This document shows positions 19,701 through 60,905 of a DNA stretch of 64,000 bases, in pieces. Within the stretch, counting starts at the first letter, position 1; each line of letters opens with the position of its first letter. The translations under genes were made by a program, and so were the position numbers. The DNA is from Prostheceraeus crozeri (lineage: Eukaryota > Platyhelminthes > Polycladida > Euryleptidae), in NCBI GenBank assembly GCA_907163375.1, contig CAJQUW010011501.1:248001-312000 (forward strand). The letters run 5' to 3'. The notes beneath the pieces are model-generated. The model searched no databases. It was not told the origin of the DNA and saw only the letters and a list, made by a program, of their open reading frames with translations.

Positions 19701-20968
19701 CCAACAAGTTAATGATGACGCACGAGAATCGCAAAGAGTATGTAGTACATATCGCTGCTCTCAAGTATTATGTGGAGAAGGGCTTACATATCACCAAGGT
19801 TCATTACGGGATCTCCTTCAACCAAGAACCGTATATTCGCCCCTATGTTCAATACCATACGCAAGAACGCGCCAAGGCCACCACGAAAATGCGCCGCAAT
19901 CTCCACAAGTTGATGGTGAACGCACTGTACGGTAAGACAATGGAGAATGTGCGGAAATATGGGAAGCACTATTTTGTTCGATCACCGAATGTATTTAGCA
20001 AATGGACACGTCATCCCTATTGCCAATCTTTCTTCAACATCAGCGACAAAGCCGTGGTGGTGAATGTGCGCAAGACCAAGGTAGACTTGAACAAGCCCAT
20101 TTATATCGGGCAATGCATCCTGGACAACAGCAAGATTATTATGTACAAGCTGTTTGACCAGTGGAAAGCCAACAAGACGTGCACCTCAGTGGAACTCATT
20201 GGTGGGGACACAGACTCCTTCTTCCTCAAAGTCCGCAGCCGGTATACACGCGAAGAAGTGCTGCGTTCGTTTGACAACATCCCCAATTTTATTGATACGG
20301 AGGCGAAAGGTGTTCTCGATACCTCAAATTACCCCGTGAGTCATCCAGAGAGACGTACCGAGAATGCAAATCGTTTGGGATGTTTCAAGGACGAGTGTGT
20401 GGGGGATAGGGTGAAGGAGTTTGTATGTTTGAGTGCCAAGATGTACTCTTACATTGTCCTCAAAGGCAATGAGGAAGAAATCCACGACTGTCGCATGAAA
20501 GGAGTGTGTCAAGCAAAGAAGCGACAAGTGAAACATCAGAATTATGTGGACGCCTTCGAAAAACATTCCGTTACCACAGTGTTACAAACCCTCCTCCAAT
20601 CCCAACACCACGTGATGAGAACAGTGACGCAAGTGAAGAAGGCCTTAAGTATCTGGGAGGACAAGCGGTGTTGGTATTTACCCAATCGGAGCCTTCCCTA
20701 CGGTAACCATCGCCTATATGAAGAAGGGTATCTACACCCCGCTCTCAAAAATGTCAAGGATCTGCAACCGCATGGTGGAGCTCAGAGCATCCTCCGCAAT
20801 ACCACTGCAGACATTGTTACCGCAACTCCCTCTGGCCACCTACCGAGCATCACGCCCTTGTCGAGTCTATTGGAAATGGAACTCTTCGGTTGCTGTACAG
20901 ATTTTTCCACGGGGGTGTATCCAAATTTTGGGCAACCACTCCCTGGAAACCTACGATCGTATTTGTAA
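16781..20968 (+). pseudogene. PolB: DNA polymerase B, element 1 (one in-frame stop)
   Basis: Replicative family B polymerase, expected to act in protein-primed copying of the element in the nucleus. N-terminus: Cys/His zinc-finger-like segments (residues about 4-110, with AYHKHACVGRCRYCD). Further on: a second Cys cluster near 420-460, exonuclease motif YADIES near 490, an endonuclease VII-like zinc motif (CNMC ... RDHDHITGKY ... LCNACN) at about 574-620, motif A DANSLYG near 875, motif B KLMVNALYGKT near 1043 and motif C GGDTDSFF near 1141. A TGA at 18677-18679 interrupts the frame inside the conserved segment just before KGYDSH; both halves are otherwise in the same frame. Beyond about 20710 the C-terminus has no match in the element 2 polymerase and overlaps the TBP-like gene, so the native stop was perhaps lost. 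Promoter: the TIR TATA box. Confidence 0.92.
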
Positions 20969-21293
20969 AGAGATGCGCCAATTACTCGCCCCCTACGGAT
21001 TGGACGTGAGCGACCCAATCACAAAATCCTGCACCGTTCAATGTCAATGGAACTATACAAAAGACCGCATGCAAACCATTCAACAGTTACCATCGTCATC
21101 AGTGATTTCCAACGAGCGCGAACTGTTTCCCGGAACGTTAATACGCAAAGGTAATTTACACTGTTCCTTCTTTTCCAACGGAAGTGTGATTGTGACGGGT
21201 GTTTTATCGATTGCAGAAGCGGAATCGTTGGTGGAAGACATTCTCAACTCCCTATTCGAAGGAGAGTCCCTCAATGAATCGGACAGCAACTAG
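20751..21293 (+). CDS. TATA-binding-protein-like factor, element 1
   Basis: About 180 residues in two imperfect repeats that follow the TBP saddle pattern. Repeat 1 has a QLP...Y...RP segment and then VAVQIFPRGCIQILG, where TBP has a strand-turn-strand ending in C/V-T-G. Repeat 2 has NERELFPGTLIRK and then FFSNGSVIVTG, closely matching the TBP signature E-L-F-P-G-L-x-R ... F-x-x-G-x-V-x-x-T-G. Each repeat ends in a helix. The element 2 protein at 60361-60905 aligns along the whole length, which supports both. The start is set at the Met that gives the same N-terminal length; an upstream Met at 20718 is possible. It overlaps the PolB tail by about 218 bp and the RING gene by 20 bp, and is probably expressed from the PolB side. 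Confidence 0.75.
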   Translation: MSRICNRMVELRASSAIPLQTLLPQLPLATYRASRPCRVYWKWNSSVAVQIFPRGCIQILGNHSLETYDRICKEMRQLLAPYGLDVSDPITKSCTVQCQWNYTKDRMQTIQQLPSSSVISNERELFPGTLIRKGNLHCSFFSNGSVIVTGVLSIAEAESLVEDILNSLFEGESLNESDSN

Positions 21294-21777
21294 TATCCCA
21301 ACGTCGTGGGTTGTCGCAAGAGATCTGGGATATTCATTCAAAGCGATAGAAACGGTAACACATCTCAATGAAACGATCACTGCTGGTGAATTAGTGGATC
21401 GACTCATGGATCTTGATAAGCACGCTATGAATCACCATTTGGAGCGTAGGTGGATCGAGGATGTCTCCCTGCCACACTGCAATACAATGACATTGGCGCG
21501 ATCTGGAGTGAAAAAAGTGAAAAAAGTGAGATTTGCAACGGATGTGTCAGATAACTCTTCCCATAAAAGTGACTTTAGAAAGAAATTAGAAGAAGAGACA
21601 TTTCAATTATTATGTGAACGCAACTGTGTTAGATGTTTTAAACAGGAACGGTCCCTTCTCTTTCTACCATGTTCTCATAATGTTATGTGTTCTACATGTT
21701 ATAATGCCTTGGAAACGTTATCTTGTCCCCTTTGTGATCAAGACATTGCTTCAACAGTCACTGTCTATCGTGCATGA
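21274..21777 (+). CDS. IAP-type UBA/RING protein, element 1
   Basis: 167 residues. The C-terminal 55 carry a C3HC4 RING of the kind found at the end of inhibitor-of-apoptosis proteins: CVRC, LPCSHNVMCSTC, CPLC and a terminal T-V-x-V-Y-R-A tail. Residues about 10-45 (VARDLGYSFKAIETVTHL) look like an IAP UBA domain. No BIR repeat is present. Known role of the family: RING E3 ubiquitin ligase activity and, in insect viruses, blocking of host cell death; here that is inference. The start is the first Met, overlapping the end of the TBP-like gene by 20 bp. A polyadenylation signal follows at 21868. Confidence 0.75.
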   Translation: MNRTATSIPTSWVVARDLGYSFKAIETVTHLNETITAGELVDRLMDLDKHAMNHHLERRWIEDVSLPHCNTMTLARSGVKKVKKVRFATDVSDNSSHKSDFRKKLEEETFQLLCERNCVRCFKQERSLLFLPCSHNVMCSTCYNALETLSCPLCDQDIASTVTVYRA

Positions 21778-21867
21778 TGTACGGAAAAACTCTGTGTACA
21801 GTGTATAGTGTACTATCACAAGTGACTGAACCTTGTACAAAACCTTGTAGTATTACCCTCTGTCTGA

Positions 21868-21873
21868 AATAAA
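21868..21873 (+). terminator. Polyadenylation signal, left gene block
   Basis: AATAAA 91 bp after the RING stop codon, between converging transcripts (PolB-TBP-RING and the minus-strand virion genes). Confidence 0.5.
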
Positions 21874-21893
21874 AATACAATCATTGACATGAT

Positions 21894-22526
21894 TCATTTC
21901 TTTATTGACTTCAAAACATGGGATAATGTAGAATACAAATAGGAATAGACAATTTTATCATTGAAGGACAAGTAGGTTTGAATGAGTTCTTGATCTTTCT
22001 CGTAAGCATCCAATGTTCGAAAGAAAGTCAGTGTTTTTTCCATAGACGTGTTAAAAGGGCGTTGGTTTAAAAAGTAAATACAGTAAGCACCACAATAGGC
22101 TTTAGGTCCTTGTATACGCAGAGGGCGACGATAGTTTAGAGGATAAGGTGTTGTCGATAACCATTCGGTCACATGCGGATAGTGAGATGGAGTGAGTCCA
22201 TAAGAGTCAAAGAATTCGCACACGCGTTGATCCGCATTTTGATAAAAGGCCAACCAATGCTTGCCAGGTTGATGAGAGCGATCACTATTGACAATAAGTG
22301 TCTTTGATTCCGTGGAATGAGCAGGAAGTAGATCAGCAGGAAACACACCTTGGAAGGGAACGTAAGAAGATTGGAGGAGGCGATGAGCAAACGTTTGACA
22401 ACTACACTGAATAGCACAGAGAAAATCATCTTCGCACATGCAGGCATTGAGTAAATGTTTCTCTTGTAATTGATTCATACCCTGCATGATTCCTTCGATT
22501 TCCGTGTTGCTTAACCAGTCTCCCAT
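21894..22526 (-). CDS. Adenain-like cysteine protease, element 1
   Basis: 210 residues. Catalytic features of the adenovirus-type (C5) maturation protease are visible in order: His in GKHWLAFY (about 100), an acidic residue in FFDSYG (about 118) and the nucleophile Cys in PKAYCGAYCIYFL (about 150). Known role: cleaves capsid and core precursors during particle maturation. The element 2 enzyme at 60932-61393 starts with the same W-L-x-x-x-x-I pattern, supporting this start. A short overlapping frame (22614 back to 22426) begins with a Met about 27 bp after a motif like the late promoter. It could be a leader ORF or a lost N-terminal extension. Confidence 0.85.
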   Translation of the reverse strand: MGDWLSNTEIEGIMQGMNQLQEKHLLNACMCEDDFLCAIQCSCQTFAHRLLQSSYVPFQGVFPADLLPAHSTESKTLIVNSDRSHQPGKHWLAFYQNADQRVCEFFDSYGLTPSHYPHVTEWLSTTPYPLNYRRPLRIQGPKAYCGAYCIYFLNQRPFNTSMEKTLTFFRTLDAYEKDQELIQTYLSFNDKIVYSYLYSTLSHVLKSIKK

Positions 22527-22645
22527 TCAGCCAACGCTGAGCTTTAATGAGACGGTGTTGATAAAGAGATGTCCAAGCGATAGGAGGAATGTGATTCTCG
22601 GGCTCCTTCACCATATCTTATGAGGATGTCCATGCGCGCCAACAC

Positions 22646-24012
22646 TTAAATAGCGGGAGGGATATACGCACTGGAGATGACAGAATTCTCCGGTGTGACG
22701 GAGAATTGTTCGTCATGAATGACAAACATTAATAAATCCAAATTTTGCGTGGTCGTATTCTCAAATTGCAATTCCAGTCCATATTGACGTGTATTGGTGG
22801 GTTGAACACTATCGATTTGTTTATCCAAGGTACAGTCAAAGGCGATAAAGTAACAGTATTTGGTAAAACTCTCCAAATCAATACCACATGATTCATTCGT
22901 GTTATAGACTTGAATCGCACGATTGAATTGACTGTAGGCAATCACGTCATCTTTGCAATTGATGGTGCCTCCTGTCATGATGGCTCCATTGGTGGTCATG
23001 GTGACTTGAGAGAGTCCATGCCTTTCAAAATAGAGTTTCGACTTCCTGGATCAAACCAAGAGTTACTGGGAACAACCGCGAAAAAGATGAGTTTAGGACT
23101 CAATAGAGCAGCCACATTGGAAAACGTCTTCTTTTGTATTCCACTTTCAATCGTTTGTCGTTGGACGGTCATGCCATTGTAGCGATAATAAATGGCTTCT
23201 GTTTTGCGTCGATTCGCAGTTTTCAATTGCAGTTCTGCATTCGGTGTGAGCATGGGCATATACAATTGGAAAGACGTGATTTTGAACTTGTACTTTGTAG
23301 AGGTTGTCCCTGCAGCATGTGCCATATCATAAATGGCATATTCCGGTTTATTCAAGGTGAAAATGAGATCCAGTTGCATGCTTGGGGGCAGAGCAATCAC
23401 TTGTTGGAACAAATTACATTTCAGGGGAAAGTCAAAGGTACGTTTAAATTTGTGGTCTGACCATTGTTTGAGAATGGCTTGATTGAGTGCATTCTCTTTA
23501 TCTGTAAACTCTACCGCCTTAGTCTTTATCGTCTTCGTCGCTGCATCATACTCCGTGTCATACATCACTTGAGGAACAGTAAATCCTTGTGTGACCATGT
23601 GTGTATTCTTCACATCATTGGTATATTGTAAAAGATTGCTAAGGTAAGCTCTCAAATAATACAAGTCATTGCCTCCTTCAATGGTGCGTTCATTCAAGCG
23701 GATAGTAATGTCGGAAAAGAGGGAGTGGGCCGTATTGTTGATAATAATTGCCTTGTCTGACGTCTCACATGGGACGTCTGCTCCTTTAGCCGAATCATGT
23801 TTCATGAGTTGTACTTCCACGCGAAAATAGGCATTGCATACATCCATCCAATGAATGGCTAGTCGAGGGACCGTGAATTGAATGGTACCGGGATTTTCCA
23901 ATCCATTGACTGGCGTCAGAACGCTCGTATGCTGAGACGTACTCGAGACATCGACTTTATCACTTTGGAATACATCGTAACGCGCATCCAATAAGGCAGG
24001 GGTTTCCGCCAT
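22646..24012 (-). pseudogene. Major capsid protein (double jelly-roll type), frameshifted
   Basis: Reading frame of 338 codons from 24012, then a second frame of 117 codons ending at 22646. Together they match the length and order of the intact 425-residue element 2 protein. Similar points: the N-terminal V-D-V...T..P.NG...I.F.VP block, an IRLNERTIEGGNDLYYLRAY segment matching L-T-I-G-E-Q-Q-V-E-G-G-Q in element 2, and TLNKPEYA matching TLNKPEFA. The family is the one annotated F54H12.2-like in animal genomes and proposed to be the Polinton major capsid protein. The frame change falls near 23030-23055, so a single indel is likely. A late-type motif lies 25 bp before the ATG. Confidence 0.78.
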
Positions 24013-24036
24013 GCTTGATGGAACGGATGTCCTAAG

Positions 24037-24044
24037 ATTGCTTA
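24037..24044 (-). promoter_or_regulatory. Late-type motif before the capsid gene
   Basis: TAAGCAAT on the minus strand, 25 bp before the ATG at 24012. Confidence 0.5.
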
Positions 24045-24048
24045 GTTC

Positions 24049-24636
24049 TTAAAAGAGCATGCGTTGTTTAGCACCTCCGCGATAACGCCCCATCAAACTT
24101 CCTTTTCCCCATTTCGTATGATGGGCAATGGCCACATGACCACGGCGACGTTTAGGAGCAGGTGCTTCCACCCGATCTCCTTCTTCATCCGTGAAGACGC
24201 GTTTCCGACTCACTTTATTTTGAATAGCTTCTACAACACGTTCGGGAGCAGTCTGTAAAGTGCGTTTGGCGAGTGCTTTCACACCCTTTTTGAGATGGTG
24301 AACTCCTTCTTGTGCGGTAGAGCTGACAGCATCCGTGACAGCTTGTTTCGCAGCATTGAGAAACTCTGTCGTACGTAACGATTTTCCCAACGTTTTCTGT
24401 ACCGTATGTACAAGTCCCTTTTGCGAAGGTTTTCGCGATGCTTTTCGAGAGGGTTTTCGAGAGGGTTGTCGATGTGTTTTTCGAGAGGGTTTTCTGGGAA
24501 CACTCTTTTTGAGTGATTTGGGCAGACGGATGGATGGTTTCTTGACACCAGTGACACGGGGTCTAATCATGCGTGTTTTCTGTCCAATCACTTTATTCCA
24601 TCCACCGCGTTGCATAAATGAACCTCTTCCAAACAA
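24049..24636 (-). CDS. Basic core-type protein, element 1
   Basis: 195 residues, extremely rich in Arg, Lys and Ser. It has RKPSRK-type repeats (residues about 48-75), a helical middle that contains TEFLNAAKQAVTDAVSS, and a basic tail with PAPKRRRGH followed by RYRGGAK. Position between capsid and penton genes and composition recall adenovirus core proteins (pVII/pX types) that pack DNA. That role is inferred from composition, not from a clear family match. Element 2 has a positional analogue at 62673-63128. A late-type motif (24712-24719) lies upstream but 76 bp away, farther than for other genes. Confidence 0.6.
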   Translation of the reverse strand: MFGRGSFMQRGGWNKVIGQKTRMIRPRVTGVKKPSIRLPKSLKKSVPRKPSRKTHRQPSRKPSRKASRKPSQKGLVHTVQKTLGKSLRTTEFLNAAKQAVTDAVSSTAQEGVHHLKKGVKALAKRTLQTAPERVVEAIQNKVSRKRVFTDEEGDRVEAPAPKRRRGHVAIAHHTKWGKGSLMGRYRGGAKQRMLF

Positions 24637-24712
24637 TCGTCCAGAGGAATGTGGTCGGTGACGGATTAAAAGAGATGCGTCATCGTGTCTTGATGTGCTT
24701 GGGAACAGACAA

Positions 24713-25615
24713 TTACTTAATTGCGCGACGTCGAAGATGCATTTTTACATAGGACCGTCCGTCTGTCATAGGGATGGGATGACCGTCATCCGACATGAGT
24801 TTGATTTCAATATCTTGCACCTGTTGACTTTTCACAGGGAGATAGGTGACATTCTGGAATTCATGATGAATACTATCTCCATAATCTTTCCCCGTGTAGG
24901 GAATCACACACATACAGTTTGTTTTCATACCTCCTACATAATGATAGCCTACAATATTACAATACAGGAGAATATTGTAGGTGAAGGCATTCAAATTCAA
25001 AGGGGCAGTCGCTTGCTGTGAGGAAGTGAGTAAGTCTGTTTTAAACCCAAGAATGTCTTTGAGCAAAGGATGGAGTTTCATACTGTAGTGTGGGGGTACG
25101 ACCACTGAGACAACATGGACATGAGGCGCCAATGTAGTGATAGAAAAGTGGAAATTGTGTCCATGCTGTCGATTCTGATTCAAACACTGCATCAACGTCT
25201 TCTCCGAATAAATACCGCGTGGAATGTTGAAGCGCGTAAACATGTCTCCCTGTTTGTCTTGTTTGTCTTGTTTATCTTGTTTGCCTTGATTGTCTTGTTT
25301 GCCTTGTTCACCCTGTTTGCCTTGCTTGCCTTGCTCTCCTCGCGGTGAATCCGTTTTGATGGACATGATAGAGGACGTATAGACGGTCGAAATCGTCTCA
25401 GGATGATCCTTCAATGTCCCCACACTAAAGCTGACATCCACGGGTATTGTCTGAAGGGTATTGATGAAATTGACGACGGAGATACCGGCTTCCCATTGAT
25501 CCCCATGGACTATGGGGATGGAAGGAACCAAGCGATTTTTGAAATGATTGGCTCTATTTTCAGGAAACAAATTGGGCTGAGCTTTACTCAACAAGTGAAT
25601 CGTTTCCTCATGCAT
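24713..25615 (-). CDS. Penton-like minor capsid protein, short form, element 1
   Basis: 300 residues. The N-terminal segment LLSKAQPNLFPENRANHF with a following WEAGISVVNF is shared with the long protein next door (LLSNTQPHLYDNKANHFF, WEVGLKEFGYVN) and with both element 2 proteins. The C-terminal segment (DIEIKLMSDDGHPIPM...RSYVKMHLRRR) is shared as well. The family is the putative penton/minor capsid protein of Polintons and adintoviruses. Between them is one copy of a G-x-Y-S-x-x-x-L module and a low-complexity stretch of Gly-Glu/Lys-Gln units. The DNA behind that stretch is a short tandem repeat, so its length may vary. A late-type motif lies 24 bp before the ATG. Confidence 0.7.
   Translation of the reverse strand: MHEETIHLLSKAQPNLFPENRANHFKNRLVPSIPIVHGDQWEAGISVVNFINTLQTIPVDVSFSVGTLKDHPETISTVYTSSIMSIKTDSPRGEQGKQGKQGEQGKQDNQGKQDKQDKQDKQGDMFTRFNIPRGIYSEKTLMQCLNQNRQHGHNFHFSITTLAPHVHVVSVVVPPHYSMKLHPLLKDILGFKTDLLTSSQQATAPLNLNAFTYNILLYCNIVGYHYVGGMKTNCMCVIPYTGKDYGDSIHHEFQNVTYLPVKSQQVQDIEIKLMSDDGHPIPMTDGRSYVKMHLRRRAIK
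25245..25345. repeat. Short tandem repeat inside penton-like gene
   Basis: Irregular units of cttgtttgt / cttgtttgcc / cttgttcac. In the coding direction they encode repeated Lys-Gln-Gly/Asp. Expansion here would lengthen the protein without breaking it if multiples of three are kept. Confidence 0.75.
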
Positions 25616-25638
25616 GGTTGAGTGTCACTCTGTCCATA

Positions 25639-25646
25639 ATTACCTA
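25639..25646 (-). promoter_or_regulatory. Late-type motif before short penton-like gene
   Basis: TAGGTAAT, 24 bp before the ATG at 25615; overlaps the stop codon of the long penton-like gene. Confidence 0.6.
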
Positions 25647-28600
25647 GTCTCCTTACGGCGGAGATGGAGTTTGAAATAGGATCGTCCTTCATGAATCGGA
25701 ATAAATTCGCCATCATCACCACGCAACTGAATTTCAATCTCATCAATAGCGGATGTAAAAATGGGGTAATAATCAATATTGGACACTTCATACGACACCA
25801 TTTCCCCCAAACGTTGTTTCTCTTCAATGGGGTGAATTTTCAAGATTTGTTCACGTTGTCCTCCCACAATACTTTCCGCCACAATATTACAATAGACGAT
25901 AATGTTGAAGGAATTGGGAGTCATACTGAGGGGAGACAGTGTTGTCATCTGTGTATTGGGTCCATAATAGGATTGGGGTAGACCTATACGATAACTCAAC
26001 GCTTCTCCAAAATCAATAAAGGCATGTTCCGCGGTTTTCACCGTCAAATAATGATCTTTCGAGAGAGAGAGGGATACATCCGTCCACGCCTGTAAATTCA
26101 CTTGGAGTTTAGAAAAGAGTCCTTCCAAGGTATAACTCCCTTTGGGAATGCGGACACGATGAAACGAGGTAGAAATGTCCAGGGTGGGGTTGATGTAACC
26201 TTGCCGAATCATGTGGTCATAGATGTGCAACGGTTTCATGGTCTTGCTATAGAGATGAAGAAAAGGGCGAGGTGTGGGATGTGTATTCACCATCACCGAT
26301 TGAATATCTTGTTTTGCCACATCCACTCCCATCACCATACCATCCACTAGATAAAACATGTTTTCTTGCCAGCGTTCCATCATGGTCGTCATGAGCTGTT
26401 GCATATCCTCACTGAACCATCCAATAAAGGAAGTCAATCTATCTTTGCAGACTTTCAGGGTGGATTCATCTTGATACGCGACAGCGGGTGAATACAATGT
26501 CTTATCAGAGAGTCTATCTCCAAACAAGTAGGATTGTAAACACGTATTGGCCAACAGCTCTTTCGATTTGTAAGCATAAGGGAAATAGGATTTCTGAAAC
26601 AAGCGATCCAATTCCTTCCCTTTCCATGGGAAGAGGGTGTCGAGGGTGTGGTTCCATCCTTTGGCATAATCAAAGGTATATTCCGGTAAACCATAGATGT
26701 GTAATGTCATCCCATGGGTGACATGTTTTGGACGTTGTTGATAGCGATGGTAACTTGCAGAACAATGTTCCGGCGTTTCCGAGTGTATACAGGTTTGTTC
26801 ATGATAGGTGAACATACCATATTCATGACTATGATTCAACATGTGTTGCCAGAGTTGTGGGGGATTGATTTTCAACCCATACCCTTCCGCGATTTTAAAG
26901 TGAAGCACGTGAAAGACGCCCACTGTGGTATACGTCACCCACACCATATCAGGCAGGGGGATGGCTTGATTGAAAGCTTGCACAAAGGATTGGAGGGTAT
27001 AATATTTCGTGGGTAAATTGAATCGTAATGGACTAGGGAGATGAGATAGGGTATGAAAAATCTCAAAAGAGTCGCCATGTTTGATGTTGAGAATATTGGG
27101 ATGCTTCTTATCCTCGGTCTTATACTGTTGTGTCGGTTTTCCATTTCGAAGCAAGACATGGGTCCCACTCAATGCATAGGGGACACTCTTCTTTTCAAAG
27201 AGAGTGTCCAATTCCATGGTTTGTTTCTGAAGGATAAAGGAGGGAACATGAATCGTGCTGAGAGGGAATTCCAAGATCCATTCTTCCCACACGTAGGTAG
27301 TCACTTCTTCTGCTTTGAAAATCTCATAGGCTTTAGAGTGTCGGTCCATCTTGATTTCCATATCGTCCGTGCAATCGATGGTCAGTTCATAATGATAGGA
27401 CATGGATGTAATGGTCCATGTCATGGGGGTGGGGAAGATGGTATTCAAATAGGTTTCCAACGAATAATAACCTGTGGGGACGATAGATCTCCATGTCTTA
27501 TCACTCTCTAAATTCTTGTAATAAAACGATTCAGGTCTAGACACATAAAATAACAGTTTGTTCCCCTTGATGAGTTGACAAAGATCCGATGTCAACACAG
27601 TCACTTCTGCACTGCATTCACCCTATCTCGTTCACGAACGATCTCGTCAAGATTGTCAGTTCCTGCAGTGGGTTTGAATGCTTTCACCCTCCTTCTTAAC
27701 GTTGCCAACCGTTCCTGTTTCACTTCAAAATCATGGAGAATAGTCCCATACAGCTCCATCAAATCCACCAAACTATGATAGGCAAATACATTATACGTGT
27801 TGTAGATATGATACTTTTCCGTAGGGGTGAAGGGAAGGGCATGTTGCCCCGTTTCATGCTGCATATCCGCACCACTGGCCAATACATTTTCTTTCACATC
27901 TTTAGGATGGGAATGAACTAAATGATGATGAATGATGGGCCGTTTTGTACCTTGTTCCTTTTGAATCGATTGTCGAACATTTTTCAATAAGACCGAATCA
28001 AACAATCGCTTCTTGGCTCCGAATCGTTTAGAGACTAAAACACCTTCCATCTTGTGTTGACGTAGGTGTCGCATCATGTTGCGGTACTTTGCATTCAGTG
28101 TGTTGATATAGGTAGGCAATAAACGGGTGGTGACTAAATCAGGAGCGTCGGCTATATGGAGGGTAGGATCGATTTTGTGTAACTGTGTATCAATCTTGTC
28201 ATACAATTGATCAATACGGTTTCTGAACCATGACACTTGTTTTTTCTTGGGATGTGGATACTTCTTTTCACGTTCTTTTGGGGTGAGTGGATTGAGGAAC
28301 TCCACTGGGAAAATAAATTGATTTTTCGTGGTGCGTGTTGGTAAAGCAATCCATTTTTTAGAGGCCAAATGTTGCATTCGGAAAAAGGTGTGTTGGTACA
28401 TTCTCACAGCTTTCATCAACGCTCTCAGTTTAGGAAGAAGGGTGCGAAGATTATGAAACAGGCCTATATGCCCTCTGGGAATAGGAGGTGCCTTTGCATT
28501 GCGTTTGAGAGAACTCACAAAGGTATCGGTCCTCATCCACATAGCACGTGTCGTATCATCACTCAGGGGTTGTATATCCTGATAGGTCACTGGAGGTGCC

Positions 28601-29493
28601 ATGGTAACAGTGGCTATTTTCTGCAAATCGGAGAGGATTCCATAATCCATCGCAGACAATGTATAATTGGAAGCATGATTTACATGAAAGGACAACCTGT
28701 TGGACGAATGAAACACTAATTTCCCCACACCAAACCATTCTAATTGTTTGAATAAATTGAGCACTGAGATTTCATTTCCGATCAACCTTTCAATCCCATG
28801 TTTGGCAAAATGGCAGCGGTGTAAGGGAATCACACTGAACCAATAGTCATGGGCGGGATATTTCTTTACGTCACATTCCTTTCGATGAATGGAGAGACGT
28901 GTATGGATCCGAACGACATCCTTCAACGATAAATGATAGTCGCATTTGTCCAATAAGAGTGAGGCCGCCAAATGAGGGGAAAACACAAGGACGTAATGAA
29001 AGGCGGAGAATTCCTTGATTTGAAACAGAGAAAATGGGGCAATGTCAATCACATAGACATCTGCTTCCTCTATGCCATTGCCTCCATAATACAAGTAGGA
29101 TGGATGTGTCGTGACAGTCATCATGCTGGAAATGGTGCGGCGTGTATATAATTCCAACGCTGTGATCATGGGGACTCGTTTCACTTCCTCATCGGATTCA
29201 AAAATGGTGTGACGACGGACCACATTGGTCCCTTCCATCGTATAATAAGGCAAATAGGCCTTCAAATCTTTCGTATCCACCATTTTCCCCACGGTAATAT
29301 AACAATCTTCGGGAATCGTATCCACATTATTCACATACCCAAACTCTTTCAACCCTACTTCCCATGTTTCTCCTTTAGGAATAAAAAGTGGATTTTCCAG
29401 TCGTGTAAAGAAATGATTGGCTTTATTGTCATACAAATGGGGTTGAGTATTGCTCAACAAGTACACATGTTGTTCCTCATGCAGTTCCTGCAT
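25640..29493 (-). pseudogene. Penton-like minor capsid protein, long form, frame broken in the middle
   Basis: Two abutting frames, 29493-27601 and about 27620-25640, together about 1,280 codons. The first has the family N-terminus (VYLLSNTQPHLY; WEVGLKEFGY). The second has the family C-terminus (DEIEIQLRGDDGEFIPIHEG, then KLHLRRK) but no ATG near its start, so I read this as one gene with a single frame change near 27601-27625. The second half has three copies of a module beginning PTGYYSLETYL, PTKYYTLQSFV and PKGSYTLEGLF. The start at 29493 is preferred because the late-type motif then sits 26 bp upstream; an ATG at 29520 also exists and overlaps the integrase tail. Two separate proteins, the second from a non-AUG start, cannot be excluded. 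Confidence 0.65.
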
Positions 29494-29503
29494 GATTACA
29501 AAA

Positions 29504-30756
29504 TCAATAGCGGCGTACATTACCTAGAGGTTCTAAGTCTGTCACCCATGAGTTCATCGAGGCCGGATAACCTTGCCAGTGCACAAAGTATTCTGGTCGT
29601 CCATTCCGACGTCGGGTCTTGAGCACTTTGTCCACTTGATAGACTTCTTCCTCCCGATGAATCACTTGTAATTCCTGAGCATAAAAGGATCCTTTGATCT
29701 CTTCTCCACTCAAGTCTTTGATCTTGTACATTTTGGTACCATGGGGGTTCTTGAGAATGTTGGAGACAATGAACTCTTCCGTCGACCAATTCGCTTCATA
29801 CCCTCGTCCAAACGTTCCTTTATCACGTGAAATACGTACCCGTGCTCCCACAGGGATAGACTTTCCCGGGACTGCAACCTTTTTATAGTTTTGTCGGAGA
29901 CGTTTCGAATTGTTTCGTTTCACTTCCTCGGCATTGGAGGCATTCACATCCATCGGGGTGAAACCTGTGGATGAATGGGTGCTGTGATTGTATGCATACA
30001 TGACATCTGCGATATAATCCACCCAATTCTTGTCATTGGTGGCTGTAAAGATACGTTCCAATTTATTCTTCACCGTACGGTTCAAGCGTTCGACATGAGC
30101 ACATTTATAGGGACTGTAGATGGAAAACAATTCAATAGCGTGCTTGTCCAAGACGTCTTTCACCGGTCGGTTATAAAATTCACGACCTTGATCCGTTTGT
30201 AGTCGTTGCGGGTGGGAATGGTTGCGAAAATGGCTTCTAAAACCCCCGACACTTCTTTGGCACTCTTGGTTTTGAGAGGGAATGCCCAGGCTTTGCGTGA
30301 AAAGATGTCCATCACCATGAGAATATACTTGTAGCCACGATTATGCTGTGCATACTTTTGATAATCGACAATATCCGCTTGAAATTGAATTTGCGGACCG
30401 CGTACACGATACGGGTGCAAGGGTTTAATACGATGCAATCGAGATTTGTGAAGGGTTTAGGTCGGTTGACGCATTAACCATTGTTTGACTTTTGTTTTTG
30501 AATAATGTGAAGCAGCAGCAAGTGCATTGACGCTTCCGTAGCCAGCGGGATGTTTGGGATTGTAATAAATCTTGTGCAACACCTCCTCCATCGACACAAT
30601 CTGCTTGGTATTGACGTGGGGGTTGAAGATAGGCGGTATTCCCGTTGGAACAACAATTAAAGCTCGCCGTGATGGTGTACTGTGTCTCTGCGCTGTCGTC
30701 TGCGTTGCCTTGGCCGCAACAACGTCCAAAGATACGCGATAAGAATGAGGAGGCAA
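29504..30756 (-). pseudogene. Retroviral-type integrase with chromodomain, element 1, two breaks
   Basis: DDE integrase that joins element ends to host DNA. Order from the start: N-terminal helical DNA-binding segment (YYNPKHPAGYGSVNALA); rve core with first Asp in QFQADIVDY, second Asp in TDQGREF and Glu in AHVERLNRT; then a C-terminal chromodomain (YQVDKVL ... YFVHWQGYPASMNSWV). A TAA at 30457-30459 interrupts the frame where relatives have an aromatic residue, and a one-base shift near 30205-30225 separates the core into two frames. The start at 30756 is favoured because a late-type motif (ATTACCTG on the plus strand) is 21 bp upstream; the Met at 30591 is an alternative. Confidence 0.88.
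29519..29526 (-). promoter_or_regulatory. Late-type motif before long penton-like gene
   Basis: TAGGTAAT, 26 bp before the preferred ATG at 29493; inside the integrase tail. Confidence 0.6.
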
Positions 30757-30776
30757 TTGGCGCGGCTGCCGTTGCC

Positions 30777-30784
30777 ATTACCTG
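30777..30784 (-). promoter_or_regulatory. Late-type motif before integrase
   Basis: CAGGTAAT, 21 bp before the ATG at 30756; overlaps the ATPase stop codon. Confidence 0.5.
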
Positions 30785-31971: not shown

Positions 31972-32022
31972 CTTGTCAAATCATAAAAGTCAGACATATA
32001 TTCCATGCATCATGTATTAAAC

Positions 32023-32030
32023 ATAACTTA
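32023..32030 (-). promoter_or_regulatory. Late-type motif before packaging ATPase
   Basis: TAAGTTAT, 52 bp before the ATG at 31971; overlaps the stop codon of the 507-residue gene. Confidence 0.5.
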
Positions 32031-33551: not shown

Positions 33552-33582
33552 GACTGAATGAAAATGATTGAAATGGCTCAGT

Positions 33583-33589
33583 TTATATA
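33583..33589 (-). promoter_or_regulatory. TATA box of the 507-residue gene
   Basis: Minus-strand CTATATAAA 32-38 bp before the ATG. Upstream (33623-33660) are ACGCCCACGCAT and GTGCTCCG, both also found in the TIRs. Confidence 0.7.
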
Positions 33590-33622
33590 GAGTTGAGCGT
33601 GGGAAATTTCTTCTCATTGGTT

Positions 33623-33660
33623 GACGCCCACGCATACAAGTGCTCTGATTGGTGCTCCGT
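33623..33660. promoter_or_regulatory. TIR-like upstream elements
   Basis: GACGCCCACGCAT at 33623-33635 and GTGCTCCGT at 33652-33660 repeat motifs that fill the TIR promoters, about 40-75 bp upstream of this TATA box. Probably binding sites of a shared regulator. Confidence 0.55.
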
Positions 33661-33699
33661 GAAATTCACGATGAATCATTCATTTTTGGTGGTGTACGG

Positions 33700-34313: not shown

Positions 34314-34341
34314 GATGATAGTATTGATGACGTGGGTATGG

Positions 34342-34349
34342 TTTACTTA
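34342..34349 (-). promoter_or_regulatory. Late-type motif before membrane protein gene
   Basis: TAAGTAAA, 29 bp before the ATG at 34313; overlaps the preceding stop codon. Confidence 0.55.
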
Positions 34350-34742: not shown

Positions 34743-34767
34743 TCTTGTCTATCATCCTCTATCCCAC

Positions 34768-34775
34768 ATAACTTA
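34768..34775 (-). promoter_or_regulatory. Late-type motif before 131-residue gene
   Basis: TAAGTTAT, 26 bp before the ATG at 34742. Confidence 0.6.
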
Positions 34776-34777
34776 GT

Positions 34778-35665: not shown

Positions 35666-35674
35666 TGAGGTGGG

Positions 35675-37160: not shown

Positions 37161-37186
37161 GTATGTGTCTTGAACGTTTCTCTATT

Positions 37187-37194: not shown

Positions 37195-37210
37195 GTTCTC
37201 CAATCGATAG

Positions 37211-52374: not shown

Positions 52375-55300
52375 ATGGTAAGTTGAAAATTTCCTCTCTC
52401 ATCTCCCTCAAACGTGTGGCTAATAGCATCTTCCTCAATTTCAGGCATCAACTTTATCACCAACACCCTCCCTTCTCGAGGAAAGTTTAGAGTTGTTGAG
52501 TCAAGGTAGGTTGTAACAATACACTGAGACTTGAACAGAGATGAAAGAATGATTTCTCTTTCAGGTGATACCAGTTCCATCTCGTGCGAGTCCATGTCAA
52601 CATTGTCGCGGAAATGCGACGATCGGCAATGTGCTGACTGTGGACACATCTTCACGAGGAAGCGTGATCTCACCCGACACATCAAGCGAGGTGTTTGTAG
52701 ACCTAAGCCGGCATCAATCTCCGAAGGTAGGGATGATTCTGTTAACGATGTCTCCTTTTCTTGCGATTTATGCATTCAGTCTTTCGAGACACGTTTTGAA
52801 CTATCTTCGCACAGACTTCAACATACACACACGAACGATACCTACACCAACGGTACCTCCTCTATCCGACTCACTGAGGTGTCCATAAATAATTTAGTGA
52901 GGAACTACCAGATGGACTCCTCAGAAACCATTGCTAACTTTGAGGAATGGTTTCATCAAAATTCATCATTGATAGAAGCGCTCTTCAACAATTTAGACAA
53001 TTTTAGAATGAAGGCGCTCATCTATCTTAAAATAAAATATGTAAAAATCGACCACCATACTGGACAAATAATAGAGAGGTTGGAGTTTCACATACCCTCC
53101 TCTCCTGCAACCGAAGTTGTAGACTGTGAGTCTTGGATAAATTTTCATATCCAAGGGTTAAAATTAAATACAGATAAATTTAACGAGCGTGATAGTGGAC
53201 TCGTTTTTGATGGTATTGAGACCGCCATGATTAAAATCAGTTTATTAGGAAATCATAGTGGTCGAGGCTCCTTTAAACTTCCGAAAAATTTAAGAAATAA
53301 AGCAGCAGTCATTTCTGTAGATTGCGAATCGCAATGTTTTAAGTATGCCGTCCTCTCCATTCTCCACTATAATGATGTGCAGAATAGTCGATACCGCAAG
53401 AGTAAGTATCAACAGTGGGAGAATGAATTAAACTTCGATGACTGTAATAGTGACGATATGAAAATTAAAGATATAGAAAAATTTGAAAAATTGAACAACA
53501 TCAAAATAGTTCTCCATGTTTGGGAAAAGGGATTGAAGGGTGTGCGCTACAACTCGCGTTCGAGTTGTTATGAACGTACAGTAAACCTGTTATTAGTAAA
53601 ACAGGATGATAGTGAGGAATGGCACTACTGCGGTATTCCCAAAATCTCTCGCTTATACCACCACTTAGAAAACTCTAGTAGAGAGTTATATTACTGCGAC
53701 AGATGTATTCGCCACTTTAGGAGGAAAACTAAATTTGAAACTCATTACGAATGGTGTAAGCGAGGTAAACTGCAAATGGAGCGCATGCCCAAAGATAAGG
53801 AGTTTTCATATAGAGAGAATGGTGATGAACTAAGTCCTCTTCGTGTCATCTATGCTGACATCGAATGTTATATCGATGATAACATCCATCGACCAGCAGC
53901 CATTTCCTGCTATGAAGTATGGCATGATCACTTTAGGAGTAGGCAAAATAAAATGCGCGTCTGGCAAGGTGAGGATTGTATTTACCAATTCCTACAACTC
54001 CTCGAACAGGCTGTAAAATTTCAACAAAAACATGATGGTGAACTCTATCGCAGATCATTGCATATGACAGCAGATGATCAAGCAAAATTTGATAGTTGCA
54101 ACATTTGCCCCAAATGTAGGAAAACATTTGACGATGATAAGATTAAGAAAGTGCGCGACCATGATCACATCAATGGTAAATTTAGAAACGCACTCTGTTC
54201 AAAATGCAATTTTTCACTTAGGATGAAACGGCGTACATTACCCGTCATTTTCCATAATTTCAAGGGCTACGACAGCCATATGATAAGAAAAGGAGGTTTA
54301 GGTCAAATGAAAGAGTGGAAGCTTGATGTAATAGCACAAACGAGAGAGAAGTTTATGGCCATGACAGCAAAAGTGCCTGTCGATAAAACTAAAGAAAATA
54401 AGACGGTCTATTTTGATATAAAATTTTTAGATTCCTACCAATTTATGACTGCATCACTGGCCTCTCTCGTGCAAAATCTAAAGTCTCTTCCACTAACACA
54501 AAATCTTAAGAAACAATACCCAAATCTAACCGATGAAGTCATCACACGGAAAGGAGTCTTTCCATATGCATATTTTGATGCAATTAGTAAACTCGGCGAG
54601 ACTTCTCTTCCGCCCATAGATAAATTTAGAAATGATTTGACCGGCGCAGAATGTAAGACCGAAGATTATGATCATGCACAAGATGCATGGATAAAATTTG
54701 ACTGCCATACATTTGGTGAATATATGATTGCCTACCTTAAGTTAGATGTATTTTTGCTGGCTGATGTATTTCAGGAGTTTCGACGAGTGGCATTAGAAGA
54801 AGATAAGTTAGATCCCGTCCACTTTGTCAGTCTGCCAGCCATGTCATTTAAGTCTGCTTTTAAAATGACTGGTGAGACCATTCATCTCTTACAAGATCCA
54901 GAGATGTATAATTTATTTGAGCGAGGAATTCGCGGTGGTCTCACATTTGTAAATAAACATAGGTTAAAATCAAAAATAGTAGGCAATGACCAGACTCATC
55001 TGAAGTATTATGACCAAAATAATTTGTATGGTAGTTCATTATCCAAACCGCTACCTCACTCTGAGTTTAGCTGGTTAGATGATAGTGATATTCAACATTT
55101 CTCCAACCCTTCCAACATACTAGCAATTCCAGATGAAGGTGATTGGGGATATTATTTTGAGATAGATCTAATCTATCCAAATAATATTAAACATAAAACC
55201 GTAGATTTTCCACTCGCACCCGAATCAGGTGAAGTGAGTAAAGATATGTTTTCCGACTTTATGAAACAATTTCATAAAGATTTAGAATCATGTGGACAAC

Positions 55301-56361
55301 CCGACTATAAGCCTTGTCGCAAACTTTTACTCACCCAGTATGATAAAGAAAACTATCTAGTCCACTTTAGCATCTTAAAATTTTATTTAGAAATGGGTAT
55401 GATTTTAAAAAGAGTTCGCCGCATTATTAAATTTAGACAGAAAGCCTTCCTCAAGCCATATATTGATAGCAACAGCCAGAAACGTGCACTAGCCCAAAAT
55501 AACTTTGAAAAAGATTTTTATAAATATAAGAACAACAGTCTATTTGGTAAGACGATGGAGGATGTTAGAAAGCGCGTAAACTACAAACTAGTTAATGATG
55601 ATCAAAAGTATCACAAATTGACCTCATCACCTCTATTCATCGATAGAGACATTATCGATGAGGACCTTATAGGTGTTAAAATGATAAAATCTGAAGTTGA
55701 GTTGTGCAAACCCATCTATATTGGTCAAGCTGTACTAGATTACTCTAAGCTTGAAATGTACCAACTCTTTTATAAAATACTAAAACCATGTCCTCTCGTA
55801 AAAGAGGTTCGTTTGTTGGGTGGTGATACAGATAGTTTCTTCTTAGGTATTACCACTCAAAAAGATTTAAATTTCAATGAAGTAGGAAAATCTTTAGAAA
55901 GATATTTTGATACATCAAATTATCATGCTGATCATCCACTCTACTCCATCAAAAATAAGGCAAAACTTGGCTGCTTTAAGGATGAGACAGCAGGGAAGGA
56001 AATAGATGAAATGATTCTCCTCCGTCCAAAAATGTATTCTATGCAATTAAAGGATAGTGATGATAGTATTAAGCGTGCTAAAGGCATATCAAGATCATTG
56101 GTCTCTAACATGAAACATAAGAATTTCAGGAAAGCCTATAGAAATAAAAATATAACGTTTGTCAATATGACAATCTTAAAATCTAAGTCGCATGAGATCA
56201 AAACTCATACTTTTAGGAAACGGGCGCTTTCAGCATGGGAGGATAAGAGGTGCTGGTTAGAACACAACATATCTCTTCCACATGGACATCCTGACACAAA
56301 CATACCACCACCCAAAAGAATTAAACTCACACTACCACATTCAGGAGACGTCTTAGCATAA
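52375..56361 (+). CDS. PolB: DNA polymerase B, element 2, with two 5' introns
   Basis: Best read as three exons: 52375-52377 (only ATG), 52445-52505 and 52565-56361, giving about 1,286 residues. Introns 52378-52444 and 52506-52564 have GTAAGT and GTAGGT donors and tttcag acceptors; the joined frame runs MASTLSPTPSLLEESLEL... into the long frame. Domains: two C2H2 fingers (CADCGHIFTRKRDLTRHIK; CDLCIQSF...HRLQH), a third near 395, exonuclease YADIEC near 450, endonuclease VII-like CPKC ... RDHDHINGKF ... LCSKCN at about 533-573, HNFKGYDSH near 586, motif A YDQNNLYG near 835, motif B KNNSLFGKTMED near 1008 and motif C GGDTDSFF near 1104. All key acidic residues are present and no stop breaks it. 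Confidence 0.9.
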
Positions 56362-58187: not shown

Positions 58188-58226
58188 ATTATTCACATTG
58201 GAAAAGTATAATAGCATACTTTTGCA

Positions 58227-59624
58227 TTAACTCTTCATTCGGAAATGGAGTGTAATACTTGTCACAGCATCTTTATGAAAAGGAATCAACGCACCAGCAT
58301 CGTCATAAATGGCAATATCAATTTGTGGGATGTAGTTTGATTTCAGCTTTGTATAATGCACTTTCTTGAAAGTATGCTCAGATAAAATACTGCAGCTTTT
58401 TGGCTGGTATGGTATCATTGCTAGCAATGGAGCTTCAACATCTCCCACACGTACATCTTCACCAATATTGGAATATATCTGAAAATAGTTAATACGACGC
58501 GATAGCGACATGTCTGCGCTAGCTTTGGTTACAGTACCACTTTTAAAGATATTTTGATCAAAACCCAAAATGTCCATTAGAGTTTTATCCATAATTAGTT
58601 CAATACCTTTTCCATTTATAGTGAGAGACAAAGTACCTTCTTTTTCAGAAAATGAAATATGTTGCTCATTAATCACTTCATTTAAATAATCTACAACCAA
58701 TTTAACCGAAGTAATAATGCGAGGCATCAACACTCTTGTTTCATGTAAGAAACCACCAAAAGGCTCTACACACTATCTGTATAAAGATACGGCCCATTCT
58801 GTATCAAATTGATTTGGCCTTTCACATGGTAAATGTTGCATATCAGATTTTCCATGAACAGCTGCAGAACGATGTCGTAAGAACTGATGAAAATCTTTTG
58901 AACAAACTAATACTAGATCATCATCATTTAATTTGCTTATTGCAATATGATTAGATGATTTGATATAAGTCAATGTTGCCACTTGTTTACCATCAACTCG
59001 AAGGAGATAATTAAATTTCTTCAATAATGTTTCAGGAGTCATGTTTGTCTTTCTTGGCTTAATCACAATCTTCTTCACCAACGTCTTCTCATTTTTTGGA
59101 ATAAGATCTACATAATAAGCTTCCTCTCGATATATTAACTGTTTATGACCACTTATGTGGTAATTAACGTTAAAATTATCATAGCTTGTCAAGGCGCTAG
59201 CGAGGTAGCCTAAATCATTTCTTAAACTTGGACTTAAACCAACAATCCAATCTTTCTCAACTACATGATGTATATAAGTATAGTCATCATTGTGCGGAGT
59301 AAATTGGGCAATATGTTTACACGCTTTATTCAAGAAATCATATATAAACTTTTTACATAATAAGAGATCTTTCTTTGGCCACTGTGGAATGTATACTCGG
59401 CAGCCCTTTTCACATTGGTAAGCAGCTGTACGCCTCATATTAATAGTCATCACCTCATGATCAAAAGTATAGACACAGTTGCTATAGACAAGTTGAGTGA
59501 CACCCACTTCCCAATTTCCATTTAGCTGTTGTGCATGATCAATGGGAGTAGAAAAGAGTGCGGCTCGATTACTAGTAAATCTCTTTGTAGCCGCATTGCT
59601 AAGCAAAATATGATAAAACGACAT
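58227..59624 (-). pseudogene. Penton-like minor capsid protein 1, element 2, with in-frame stop
   Basis: About 465 codons in one frame from Met 59624, interrupted by TAG at 58773-58775. N-terminus MSFYHILLSNAATKRFTSNR and GNWEVGVTQLVYSN match the penton-like family; the end (QIDIAIYDDAGALIPFHKDA, then LHFRMKS) matches the C-terminal strand pair of the element 1 proteins. At least three repeat modules lie between (IPQWPKKDLLL; MTPETLLKKFNYLL; ITSVKLVVDYLNEV with MDILGF). The part after the stop has Met codons, so a separate product is possible. Confidence 0.6.
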
Positions 59625-59640: not shown

Positions 59641-59653
59641 TGCAACTTTGCAT
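59641..59653 (-). promoter_or_regulatory. Candidate element 2 promoter motif
   Basis: ATGCAAAGTTGCA on the minus strand, 17 bp before the ATG at 59624. ATGCAAAGTTGTA recurs at 63154-63166, 26 bp before the core protein gene, and ATGCAAAAGTATG lies 29-30 bp before the ATG at 58187. Confidence 0.4.
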
Positions 59654-59659
59654 AACATC

Positions 59660-60016
59660 ATGAAGACTTGGATTTTGGACTCTCTACAATATATCAGAGT
59701 TGATCGTGATGGAAACGTACATTTCAAAAATTCTCATGGTCATACATCAAGAGGAATTACATTAACATGGCGACAATTTGTCAACCTCAATGATATCATG
59801 AGGGATTTGGAATATTTTGAAACATTAAGATTCATCTCCTTGGGTGATCAAGTTTGGCTTCAACATTACAGAAATGAAATTCAAATCTACCATTCTCATT
59901 CCGCAAACTGTTTCTCATTTCGCAAATACAATTGGGAGAAGTATAGAAGATATATACATCACTCCATCATGACATTTATTCGTCGTGAGGTCATCGCCCT
60001 ACTATGCAAATCTTAA
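59660..60016 (+). CDS. PC4-like protein, copy 1, element 2
   Basis: 118 residues. The first half (YIRVDRDGNVHFKNSHG ... RGITLTWRQFVNLNDIM) has the strand-strand-helix layout of the PC4/p15 transcription coactivator, including a G-I-x-L-T-x-x-Q-x-x-x-L core. The second half (QVWLQHYRNEIQIYHSH ... WEKYRRYIHHSI) looks like a degenerate second repeat. PC4 proteins bind single-stranded DNA and assist transcription start or replication. The assignment is from pattern and needs structure prediction. Copy 2 follows 22 bp later. Confidence 0.45.
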   Translation: MKTWILDSLQYIRVDRDGNVHFKNSHGHTSRGITLTWRQFVNLNDIMRDLEYFETLRFISLGDQVWLQHYRNEIQIYHSHSANCFSFRKYNWEKYRRYIHHSIMTFIRREVIALLCKS

Positions 60017-60038
60017 TCAGACATGACTACCACACATC

Positions 60039-60689
60039 ATGAGTTGGAAATTAGATTCCCTACAACGTATTGAAACGGATCATGATCGAAACGTCTATTT
60101 CAAAGATTCAACTGGAAATGTGAGAAGAGAGTTTGCTTTATCTTATCGTCATTTTCAATCTCTACATCATATCATGAAGGACTTGAAATACTTCTATATG
60201 AAAAGACATTCACGTATTGGAAATCGCATCTGGCTGCGCGTCAACAATCGGCGAATTCAACTCTATCATTCCCAACTTCATACTAACTTCACATTTCATC
60301 AAGGTAGTTGGGAAAAGTATAAAAGGAAGGTACATCGCTCAATTTACTCATTCTTTCATCATGAAGCGCCATCGCTACACCATCGTCAACATTCTCCGTC
60401 GCTTCAGACTCTACACCAAAATCGATCTCACAACATTACACCAACAGCTTCCAAACAGCAAGTATTACCCGGGCCGTCCTCAAATGTTAGTGGTGAAGAT
60501 GAACAATTCACGGAATCTTCAACTCTTCCCAAATGGGACTGTACAGATTCTCGGCGCCCTTTCTCATTCATCGGCGCAGTCAATGCGCTTAGAGCTACAA
60601 AGACTACTACGTCGGATATGGAAGAGGGAGAGGTGTGTGATGTCGAATCTGACTGTGGACAATATGGTGATCTCTACTCAATTGAGTGA
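60039..60689 (+). CDS. PC4-like protein, copy 2, with tail overlapping the TBP-like gene
   Basis: Residues 1-107 repeat copy 1 (LDSLQRIETDHDRNVYFKDS ... FALSYRHFQSLHHIMKDL; RIWLRVNNRRIQLYHSQ). The tandem arrangement indicates gene duplication. From about 60360 the frame runs a further 110 codons inside the TBP-like gene in another frame; the tail is acidic (DMEEGEVCDVESDCG). That tail may be real overlapping coding or simply an unblocked frame. Role as for copy 1, inferred. Confidence 0.45.
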   Translation: MSWKLDSLQRIETDHDRNVYFKDSTGNVRREFALSYRHFQSLHHIMKDLKYFYMKRHSRIGNRIWLRVNNRRIQLYHSQLHTNFTFHQGSWEKYKRKVHRSIYSFFHHEAPSLHHRQHSPSLQTLHQNRSHNITPTASKQQVLPGPSSNVSGEDEQFTESSTLPKWDCTDSRRPFSFIGAVNALRATKTTTSDMEEGEVCDVESDCGQYGDLYSIE

Positions 60690-60905
60690 CAGTCTATCAT
60701 TTTTGAAGATTCGTACCAGCAGTTACAGTTTGTGTTATGAACCCGAACTTTTCCTGCAGCTCTCATTAGTTGTTGGTTACCTGTGCATGTGGCAATCTTT
60801 CATAATAGTAAAGTGATCATTACTGGACTAAAATCTCATGTACAAGCAAATATGATCCTAGACTATCTCATTGAGTATGTACGTACCCAGCGGATTGTAA
60901 AATAA
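60361..60905 (+). pseudogene. TATA-binding-protein-like factor, element 2, one frameshift
   Basis: About 181 codons. Repeat 1: IDLTTLHQQLPNSKYYPGRP, then LQLFPNGTVQILGA, aligning with the element 1 protein (QLP...Y...RP; QIFPRGCIQILGN). Repeat 2: SLCYEPELF, identical to the YEPELF signature of TBP, then after a one-base frame change near 60748-60752 a segment with FHNSKVIITGLKSH and a final helix. This reproduces the TBP pattern of F-x-x-G-x-V-x-x-T-G. The frame change lies at TTTTCC, a place where a sequencing or replication slip is easy. AATAAA overlaps the stop. It likely binds promoter DNA. Confidence 0.75.

Follow-up and report, generated by a model that had tools for sequence, protein, structure and literature searches.

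Two Polinton-like elements in the genome of the flatworm Prostheceraeus crozeri encode TBP-family proteins that may act as late transcription factors

Relatives of the TATA-binding protein (TBP) that are encoded by viruses are known from large DNA viruses. Among them are the late factors of beta- and gamma-herpesviruses (BcRF1 of Epstein-Barr virus, ORF24 of Kaposi's sarcoma-associated herpesvirus and of murine herpesvirus 68, and UL87 of cytomegalovirus), TBP-like proteins that, in the accessible part of PMC4893493, bind TATT, a late box located at the TATA position. TBP is also a core gene of mirusviruses, present in 59% of their genomes according to the accessible part of PMC10132985. In poxviruses, VETF-l and VITF-3 contribute TBP-like parts to viral initiation (PMC12917281, in the portion available), and TATA-binding proteins are mentioned for other algal viral elements in an accessible portion of PMC10675990. 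Here we describe TBP-like genes in two Polinton-like elements, element 1 and element 2, that are located in one contig of the polyclad flatworm Prostheceraeus crozeri ([GenBank:CAJQUW010011501.1], positions 248,001 to 312,000). This stretch of 64,000 nucleotides (nt) is hereafter called the window, and all coordinates refer to it. As in Polintons/Mavericks and adintoviruses, the genes and signals present include polymerase B, a chromodomain integrase, a putative adenovirus-type protease, inverted repeats and a 6-bp target duplication, the latter two being found in element 1 only. The TBP gene sets the two elements apart: neither TATA nor TBP occurs in the text of PMC11071296, PMC11071308 and PMC10120064, or in the accessible part of a paper on Drosophila DNA viruses (PMC8363768). 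There was no recognisable report of a Polinton TBP in the open PubMed Central literature, most subscription papers and supplements being beyond reach. While mirusviruses, which likewise carry a TBP gene, are far larger, the elements described here are about 25 kb long and live as multicopy transposons of an animal.

In element 1 the TBP-like gene (20751..21293, plus strand) is intact and encodes 180 amino acids (aa); another in-frame ATG is located at 20718. Its product matches the Pfam family PF00352 (TBP; curated cut-off 22.9 bits) in two stretches, with an E-value of 5.9e-11 and 42.5 bits. In element 2 the gene is frame-broken within the window. Its first piece (60361..60816, plus strand), covering repeat 1 and the beginning of repeat 2, also matches PF00352 in two stretches (8.8e-14, 51.6 bits), and the remainder of repeat 2 is found in another frame (60750..60902, plus strand; 0.023, 15 bits, under the cut-off). 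The original prediction, made from the sequence without database searches, was that both elements encode a TBP-like protein detectable by a profile search, with a YEPELF signature in element 2; all of this holds. The same prediction took 60361-60905 for one protein. The part up to 60816 does match TBP, but the frame that contains YEPELF stops there. It also placed ELFPG and TG cores in both repeats. Repeat 2 indeed has ELFP and TG, but repeat 1 has neither: RPCR (element 1) or GRPQM (element 2) stands at the ELFP place and LG replaces TG.

A profile of relatives (A3), compared with solved structures, matched archaeal and eukaryotic TBPs over both repeats, including 2z8u (6.1e-24) and yeast TBP (1tbp, 6.4e-19). 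In profile-profile comparison with five ordinary and three odd TBPs both repeats were aligned, with probabilities of 99.5, 97.9 and 98.1. The single element 1 sequence gave weak matches to solved TBPs, the best being 2z8u (E 0.0041). Based on the Pfam, structure-profile and profile-profile matches, and on the conserved contacts and purifying selection described below, we conclude that both elements encode a TBP-family protein; that these proteins are relatives of TBP is nearly certain.

Of 156 candidates from a search with the element 1 protein, 9 had an E-value of 0.01 or less, and one of these is 98% identical to the query. A profile of ten sequences found 106 proteins. Inspection by eye assigns about 75 of these (P0002-P0077) to the element family; from about P0078 onwards the hits are other TBPs, although P0082 and P0083 resemble element-type fragments. 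The 66 family members included in an 85-sequence tree group as a single clade (support 0.745), although this monophyly is partly built in, the family having been gathered with its own profile. Element 1 belongs to one half of the clade (0.99) and element 2 to the other (0.94). An odd group of short TBP-like proteins (P0078, P0080 and P0104; 171-175 aa) falls outside the element family (0.979). These database relatives may lie in Polintons as well; none of the contigs listed for P0002-P0077 exceeds 21 kb. Scans of IMG/VR (with TBP1, alignments A2-A5 and the element 1 polymerase) and of GTDB genomes (with A3) yielded no confirmed locus.

Copies of the gene are abundant in the flatworm genome of 2.05 Gb. 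With the element 1 protein, the 150 places that were scored, the top-ranked of 9587 first-look places, were all 97-100% identical and had 0 stops. With P0025 and P0017, 147 of the 150 scored places were free of stops in each case (of 11747 and 9314 first-look places, respectively). As these are top-ranked places, the counts indicate that intact frames are many and do not give the intact fraction. At ten loci of the P0017 search the TBPs are 94-97% identical to that of element 1. All 30 top-ranked element 2-type copies fetched from elsewhere in the genome have a full-length frame. The host's own TBP is encoded on another contig, where at least two exons lie some 15 kb from each other, and a TLF-like gene is present elsewhere in the genome. 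The COX1 gene, read with genetic code 5 instead of the code used by flatworms, has its nearest named records among polyclad flatworms (69-70%), in agreement with a flatworm host, although its contig may be a contaminant.

The element TBP is under purifying selection. The ratio of nonsynonymous to synonymous substitution rates (dN/dS) among 29 of the 30 element 2-type copies (L029 was missed by the start filter) is 0.23 between two clades of 21 and 8 copies, at a dS of 0.28, and 0.28 and 0.20 within them. These copies were found with a 69%-identical protein, which makes the set less biased, if not unbiased. The corresponding value for copies of element 1, 0.22 (22 of the 27 fetched were of the window's length, 21 of them distinct), was set aside because those copies had been ranked by similarity to this very protein. 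In the element 2 gene dS is 0.23 in the 5' part and 0.39 in the 3' part. The 5' part is overlapped, in another frame, by a 216-aa frame (60039-60689, plus strand), and 222-aa frames occupy the same position in copies L060 and L062, which suggests dual coding with the TBP gene.

In yeast and human TBP, four phenylalanines kink the DNA, E186, E188 and L189 contact TFIIB, and K138 and K145 serve TFIIA. We aligned 66 family members with yeast, archaeal and four other TBPs (yeast numbering; gaps left out). The TFIIB-contact positions are well kept: E186 in 62/66 members (D in the other 4), E188 in 66/66, and L189 in 52/66 (I in 14). Neither TFIIA position is kept, with K138 found in 4/66 and the most frequent letter at K145 being R (16/66). 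For the DNA-binding residues, which the original prediction proposed to inspect on the concave face, the picture is mixed. Three of the four kinking phenylalanines are kept (F116 and F190 in 66/66, F207 in 64/65), as are N69 (55/56) and T215 (65/65), but F99 is replaced by proline in 65/65 members and other repeat-1 contacts are changed. Glutamine takes the place of L114 in 62/66 members and of V122 in 66/66, T124 is replaced by L or M (66/66), and V203 by H (62/65). The N159 position has N in 41/66 members and S in 23/66, element 1 being among those with S. Cellular TBP and animal TLF share the two repeats, the YEPELF stirrup and most DNA contacts with this family, which differs from them in having P for F99 and Q for V122 throughout. 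By alignment, the half predicted to hold TFIIB is kept, and the DNA face of the other half (repeat 1) is altered in a fixed manner.

A kept TFIIB stirrup together with an altered DNA face is what a decoy or antagonist might have, a protein that keeps TFIIB off host promoters or shields the promoters of the element. For a pure decoy, however, three DNA-bending phenylalanines and the repeat-1 asparagine would be superfluous, and we regard such a role as improbable. Even less credit is given to a function in replication or packaging, in which origin DNA or the inverted repeats would be bent by the protein. The overlap between the TBP gene and the end of the polymerase frame in element 1 is consistent with such a function, but the conserved TFIIB contacts would be useless there.

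Judged by their upstream sequences, the element genes form two promoter-like classes, one with a TATA box plus initiator and the other with a conserved non-TATA box near the ATG. In the first class a TATA box is followed, 30-32 nt on, by the A of TCATTY, ahead of the ATGs at 16781, 41301, 39223, 33551 and 60361; the TATA boxes are located 38-46 nt ahead of the ATG. In element 1, TATATAAG is present at 16735..16742 (plus strand), followed by TCATTC with its A at 16766, before ATG 16781. It is mirrored in the other inverted repeat at 41336..41343 (minus strand; initiator A 41312, ATG 41301) and found again at 39255..39262 (minus strand; initiator A 39231), before ATG 39223 of a 68-aa frame. TATATAAG boxes, which the original prediction had pointed to, are thus present at 16735 (+), 41343 (-) and 39262 (-). 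TATATAAA at 33582..33589 (minus strand; initiator A 33559) precedes ATG 33551 of a 507-aa frame. The TBP gene of element 2 itself has TATAAAAG at 60318..60325 (plus strand), followed by TCATTC (A at 60350) and ATG 60361, and other copies of this gene have TATAAAAG in 27/29 and TCAKTY in 28/29 cases. By plain count, these five pairs account for 5/8 of the distinct TATA sites of this kind in the window. The TATATAAG promoters have the look of common host promoters with a TATA box and an initiator.

Such promoters might suggest that the element simply supplies extra TBP and thereby strengthens transcription from its own TATATAAG and TATAAAAG promoters. The canonical pairs before five element genes and the TATA box kept in 27 of 29 copies of the TBP gene are consistent with this, and the herpesvirus protein BcRF1 binds TATA and TATT alike in vitro (PMC4893493, accessible part). 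On the other hand, TATA promoters suit the host TBP, which is present in the genome, and the fixed changes of repeat-1 DNA contacts point to a specificity that is changed rather than copied. We consider this explanation unlikely.

The second class is best seen in element 1. Before seven of its genes, all on the minus strand, a putative late box of the form ACTARGTWA (at most one mismatch) is located 33-38 nt ahead of the ATG. The candidates are ACTAGGTAA at 25640..25648 (33 nt ahead of ATG 25615) and at 37188..37196 (36 nt, ATG 37160), ACTAAGTAA at 34343..34351 (38 nt, ATG 34313), ACTAAGTTA at 34769..34777 (35 nt, ATG 34742) and at 39905..39913 (34 nt, ATG 39879), and, with one mismatch each, ACTAAGCAA at 24038..24046 (34 nt, ATG 24012) and ACTAAGTAG at 39594..39602 (34 nt, ATG 39568). 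The boxes at 25640 and 34343 take in the stop of the previous gene. The window has six exact ACTARGTWA sites. Five of these are in element 1, on one strand and 33-38 nt ahead of a gene's ATG, and the sixth, near element 2 (56377), is not so placed. With up to one mismatch the motif occurs at 40 places in the window, most of them elsewhere than at gene starts. The best 8-mer before the 25 gene starts of element 1 is CTAAGTAA, found in 8/25 regions (p 4e-7), and none of 300 random sets was as good; this list and the corresponding list of 18 starts in element 2 were chosen by us and include some non-ATG starts and one moved start (58187). In diverged copies only 1/135 box bases is changed, compared with 49/386 between box and ATG (Fisher p 4e-6). 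This comparison covers four of the seven sites, in 5, 4, 3 and 3 diverged copies, two of ten stretches (L080 and L082) having been dropped because they did not align. The count of CTARGTA in the window is not above chance. Since counting alone is weak, the case for ACTARGTWA rests on position, strand and conservation.

In element 2 the candidate late box is ATGCAAA. On the minus strand it is represented by CATGCAAA at 63160..63167 (ahead of ATG 63128), TATGCAAA at 59647..59654 (ATG 59624) and AATGCAAA at 58221..58228, ahead of ATG 58187, a start chosen from other copies (the first in-frame ATG is at 58217). TATGCAAA is also found on the plus strand at 60003..60010, ahead of ATG 60039. The element 2 pieces that were read contain eight exact ATGCAAA, and 6/8 lie 29-46 nt ahead of a gene start, 5 of these 6 on the structural strand. 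In the k-mer test CATGCAAA came second (1.5e-4, 8/18 regions). Compared with three other copies at four sites, 5/80 box bases differ versus 78/280 in the spacer (p 1.7e-5); one of the compared copies has lost one box. The conservation of ACTARGTWA and ATGCAAA before element genes is newly described here. A merged motif for the boxes of both elements was not supported.

The boxes could instead be read by a host factor or act as RNA signals, with TBP having some other role. The two elements have different boxes, as might be expected if this were the case; ATGCAAAT resembles the octamer of host POU factors, and the GT of ACTARGTWA could belong to a splice donor. Against it, the distance from box to ATG (about 33-38 nt) comes close to the 38-46 nt found for the TATA boxes, suggesting a core promoter element. 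We rate this explanation as rather unlikely, if slightly ahead of that of extra TBP.

What we propose instead is that the TBP-family factor of both elements acts like a viral late TBP, a proposition that on the sequences and by analogy we hold to be evenly balanced. Early on, host TBP and RNA polymerase II (Pol II) would use the TATA plus initiator promoters. One of these would drive the TBP gene of element 2, and the TBP gene of element 1, which follows the inverted-repeat promoter on the same strand, would also be expressed early. Later, the element TBP may bind the non-TATA boxes and, bound there, recruit host TFIIB and Pol II, turning on the genes of the capsid side. The early half of this scheme rests on sequence and the late half is what we infer, with the TBP-like proteins of beta- and gamma-herpesviruses at TATT boxes as the model. 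The original prediction had offered two functions, that the factor favours the element's own TATATAAG promoters or that it switches genes on late. The latter fits better and the former less, because the TATATAAG promoters look host-type and other genes have a different conserved box. In its full form the proposal is tentative and stands somewhat below even: Polintons would have a promoter switch of two stages, operated by a rewired TBP that in each lineage recognises that lineage's non-TATA late box at the TATA position and delivers host TFIIB and Pol II to the capsid genes. A transposon of about 25 kb would then have a virus-like early/late programme and a core-promoter code of its own.

Several observations weigh against a late TBP of this kind. 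The boxes of the two elements differ though the changed TBP residues agree, and ATGCAAAT is also the octamer of host POU factors. The late and capsid-side roles of the box-bearing genes are putative, deduced from gene position. For element 1, the contrast of box bases with all aligned bases is weaker (1/135 versus 925/15836, Fisher p 0.005) than that with the spacer. The stretch just 5' of the boxes, mostly the end of the previous gene, is equally conserved, making the footprint one-sided, and 2/4 of the compared boxes take in the previous gene's stop. ACTARGTA occurs 6 times in the whole window versus 2.0 expected, a weak excess reached by 1/100 shuffles. For element 2, the best word was TCAAGGTA, which was equalled by 7/300 random sets.

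The likeness to the herpesvirus late factors consists of a virus-coded TBP relative for late genes and a variant box at the TATA position (PMC4893493, accessible part). The differences are that similarity to TBP is here plain in sequence (Pfam) and that the boxes are ACTARGTWA or ATGCAAA. The TATT late box is not among the leading k-mer words (CTAAGTAA in element 1; TCAAGGTA and CATGCAAA in element 2), TATT not having been searched by name. The TBP-like domains of poxviruses, in contrast, were recognised from their structure; their sequence similarity is low, and the polymerase that they serve is viral (PMC12917281, accessible part). No viral RNA polymerase was seen in the elements, though no search was aimed at one. 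If true, the proposal explains how Polintons could time their capsid genes. It would also make available, for work on how the specificity of TBP evolves, a set of natural TBPs whose DNA face has changed, with proline in place of a kinking phenylalanine, and it would bring a transcription gene into the question of Polinton kinship with larger DNA viruses. Both conserved boxes allow a direct test of the idea.

Element 1 is a Polinton insertion of 25,045 bp. Its borders are set at 16517..41561 because the 6-bp target AATGCT is duplicated at 16511..16516 (left) and 41562..41567 (right), and its terminal inverted repeats are 263 nt long and 99% complementary. Element 2 starts near 52.5 kb and extends beyond the end of the window, where its continuation was read as stretch L059; its ends were not found in one comparison. 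Both elements have a DNA polymerase B of the protein-primed type, recognised by Pfam in element 1 and by similarity in element 2. In element 1 the N-terminal part of the polymerase frame (16781..18679, plus strand) terminates at an in-frame stop (18677-18679), which means that this copy is not intact. The polymerase B part follows at 18701..20968 (plus strand; PF03175, 7.4e-25), its frame extending into the TBP gene. The 1276-aa polymerase B protein of element 2 (52531..56361, plus strand) was not recognised as a polymerase by Pfam alone, but it shares 36% identity with its element 1 counterpart in an alignment of 717 residues (4e-137).

Both elements also encode a retrovirus-type integrase with a chromodomain above the Pfam cut-off. 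In element 1 the C-terminal part with the chromodomain is at 29504..30163 (minus strand; PF00385, 2.4e-8), the integrase core was recognised by eye, and core and end are in different frames (29504-30900). In element 2 the integrase (part) is at 63170..63802 (minus strand; PF00385, 2.7e-7; rve_3, 0.0023, under the cut-off). The putative proteases are related to each other (2e-8). That of element 1 is probably of adenovirus type (21894..22526, minus strand; PF00770, 3.4e-4, 20.8 bits, slightly under the cut-off of 21.3), and that of element 2 (60932..61393, minus strand; PF02902, 0.0044, under the cut-off) points toward the TBP gene, which runs toward it on the opposite strand. In element 1 the TBP and protease genes are separated by a RING-finger gene (21274-21777, plus strand; PF13920, 5.2e-11, frame from 21199), which overlaps the 3' end of the TBP gene. 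The probable capsid proteins, candidates for the double jelly-roll proteins of Polintons (22996..24012 in element 1 and 61393..62670 in element 2, both minus strand), are related to each other (7e-13); neither has a Pfam match, and the element 2 candidate is also without a PDB match. A P-loop protein of element 1 has Pfam matches that are all under the cut-offs. Small basic proteins at 39296-39568 (element 1) and 62673-63128 (element 2), both on the minus strand, have RRQKGG or RRQRGG stretches, which resemble cleavage sites of adenovirus-type proteases.

Between the two elements there are tandem arrays at 46533-48084 and 50160-51695, including seven 206-bp units. Relatives of the array at 46.5-48 kb sit inverted in L059, at about 4790-7510. 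Finally, a further inverted repeat is found at 4585-5677 of the window, with arms of 350 nt that are 99% complementary and 393 nt between them.

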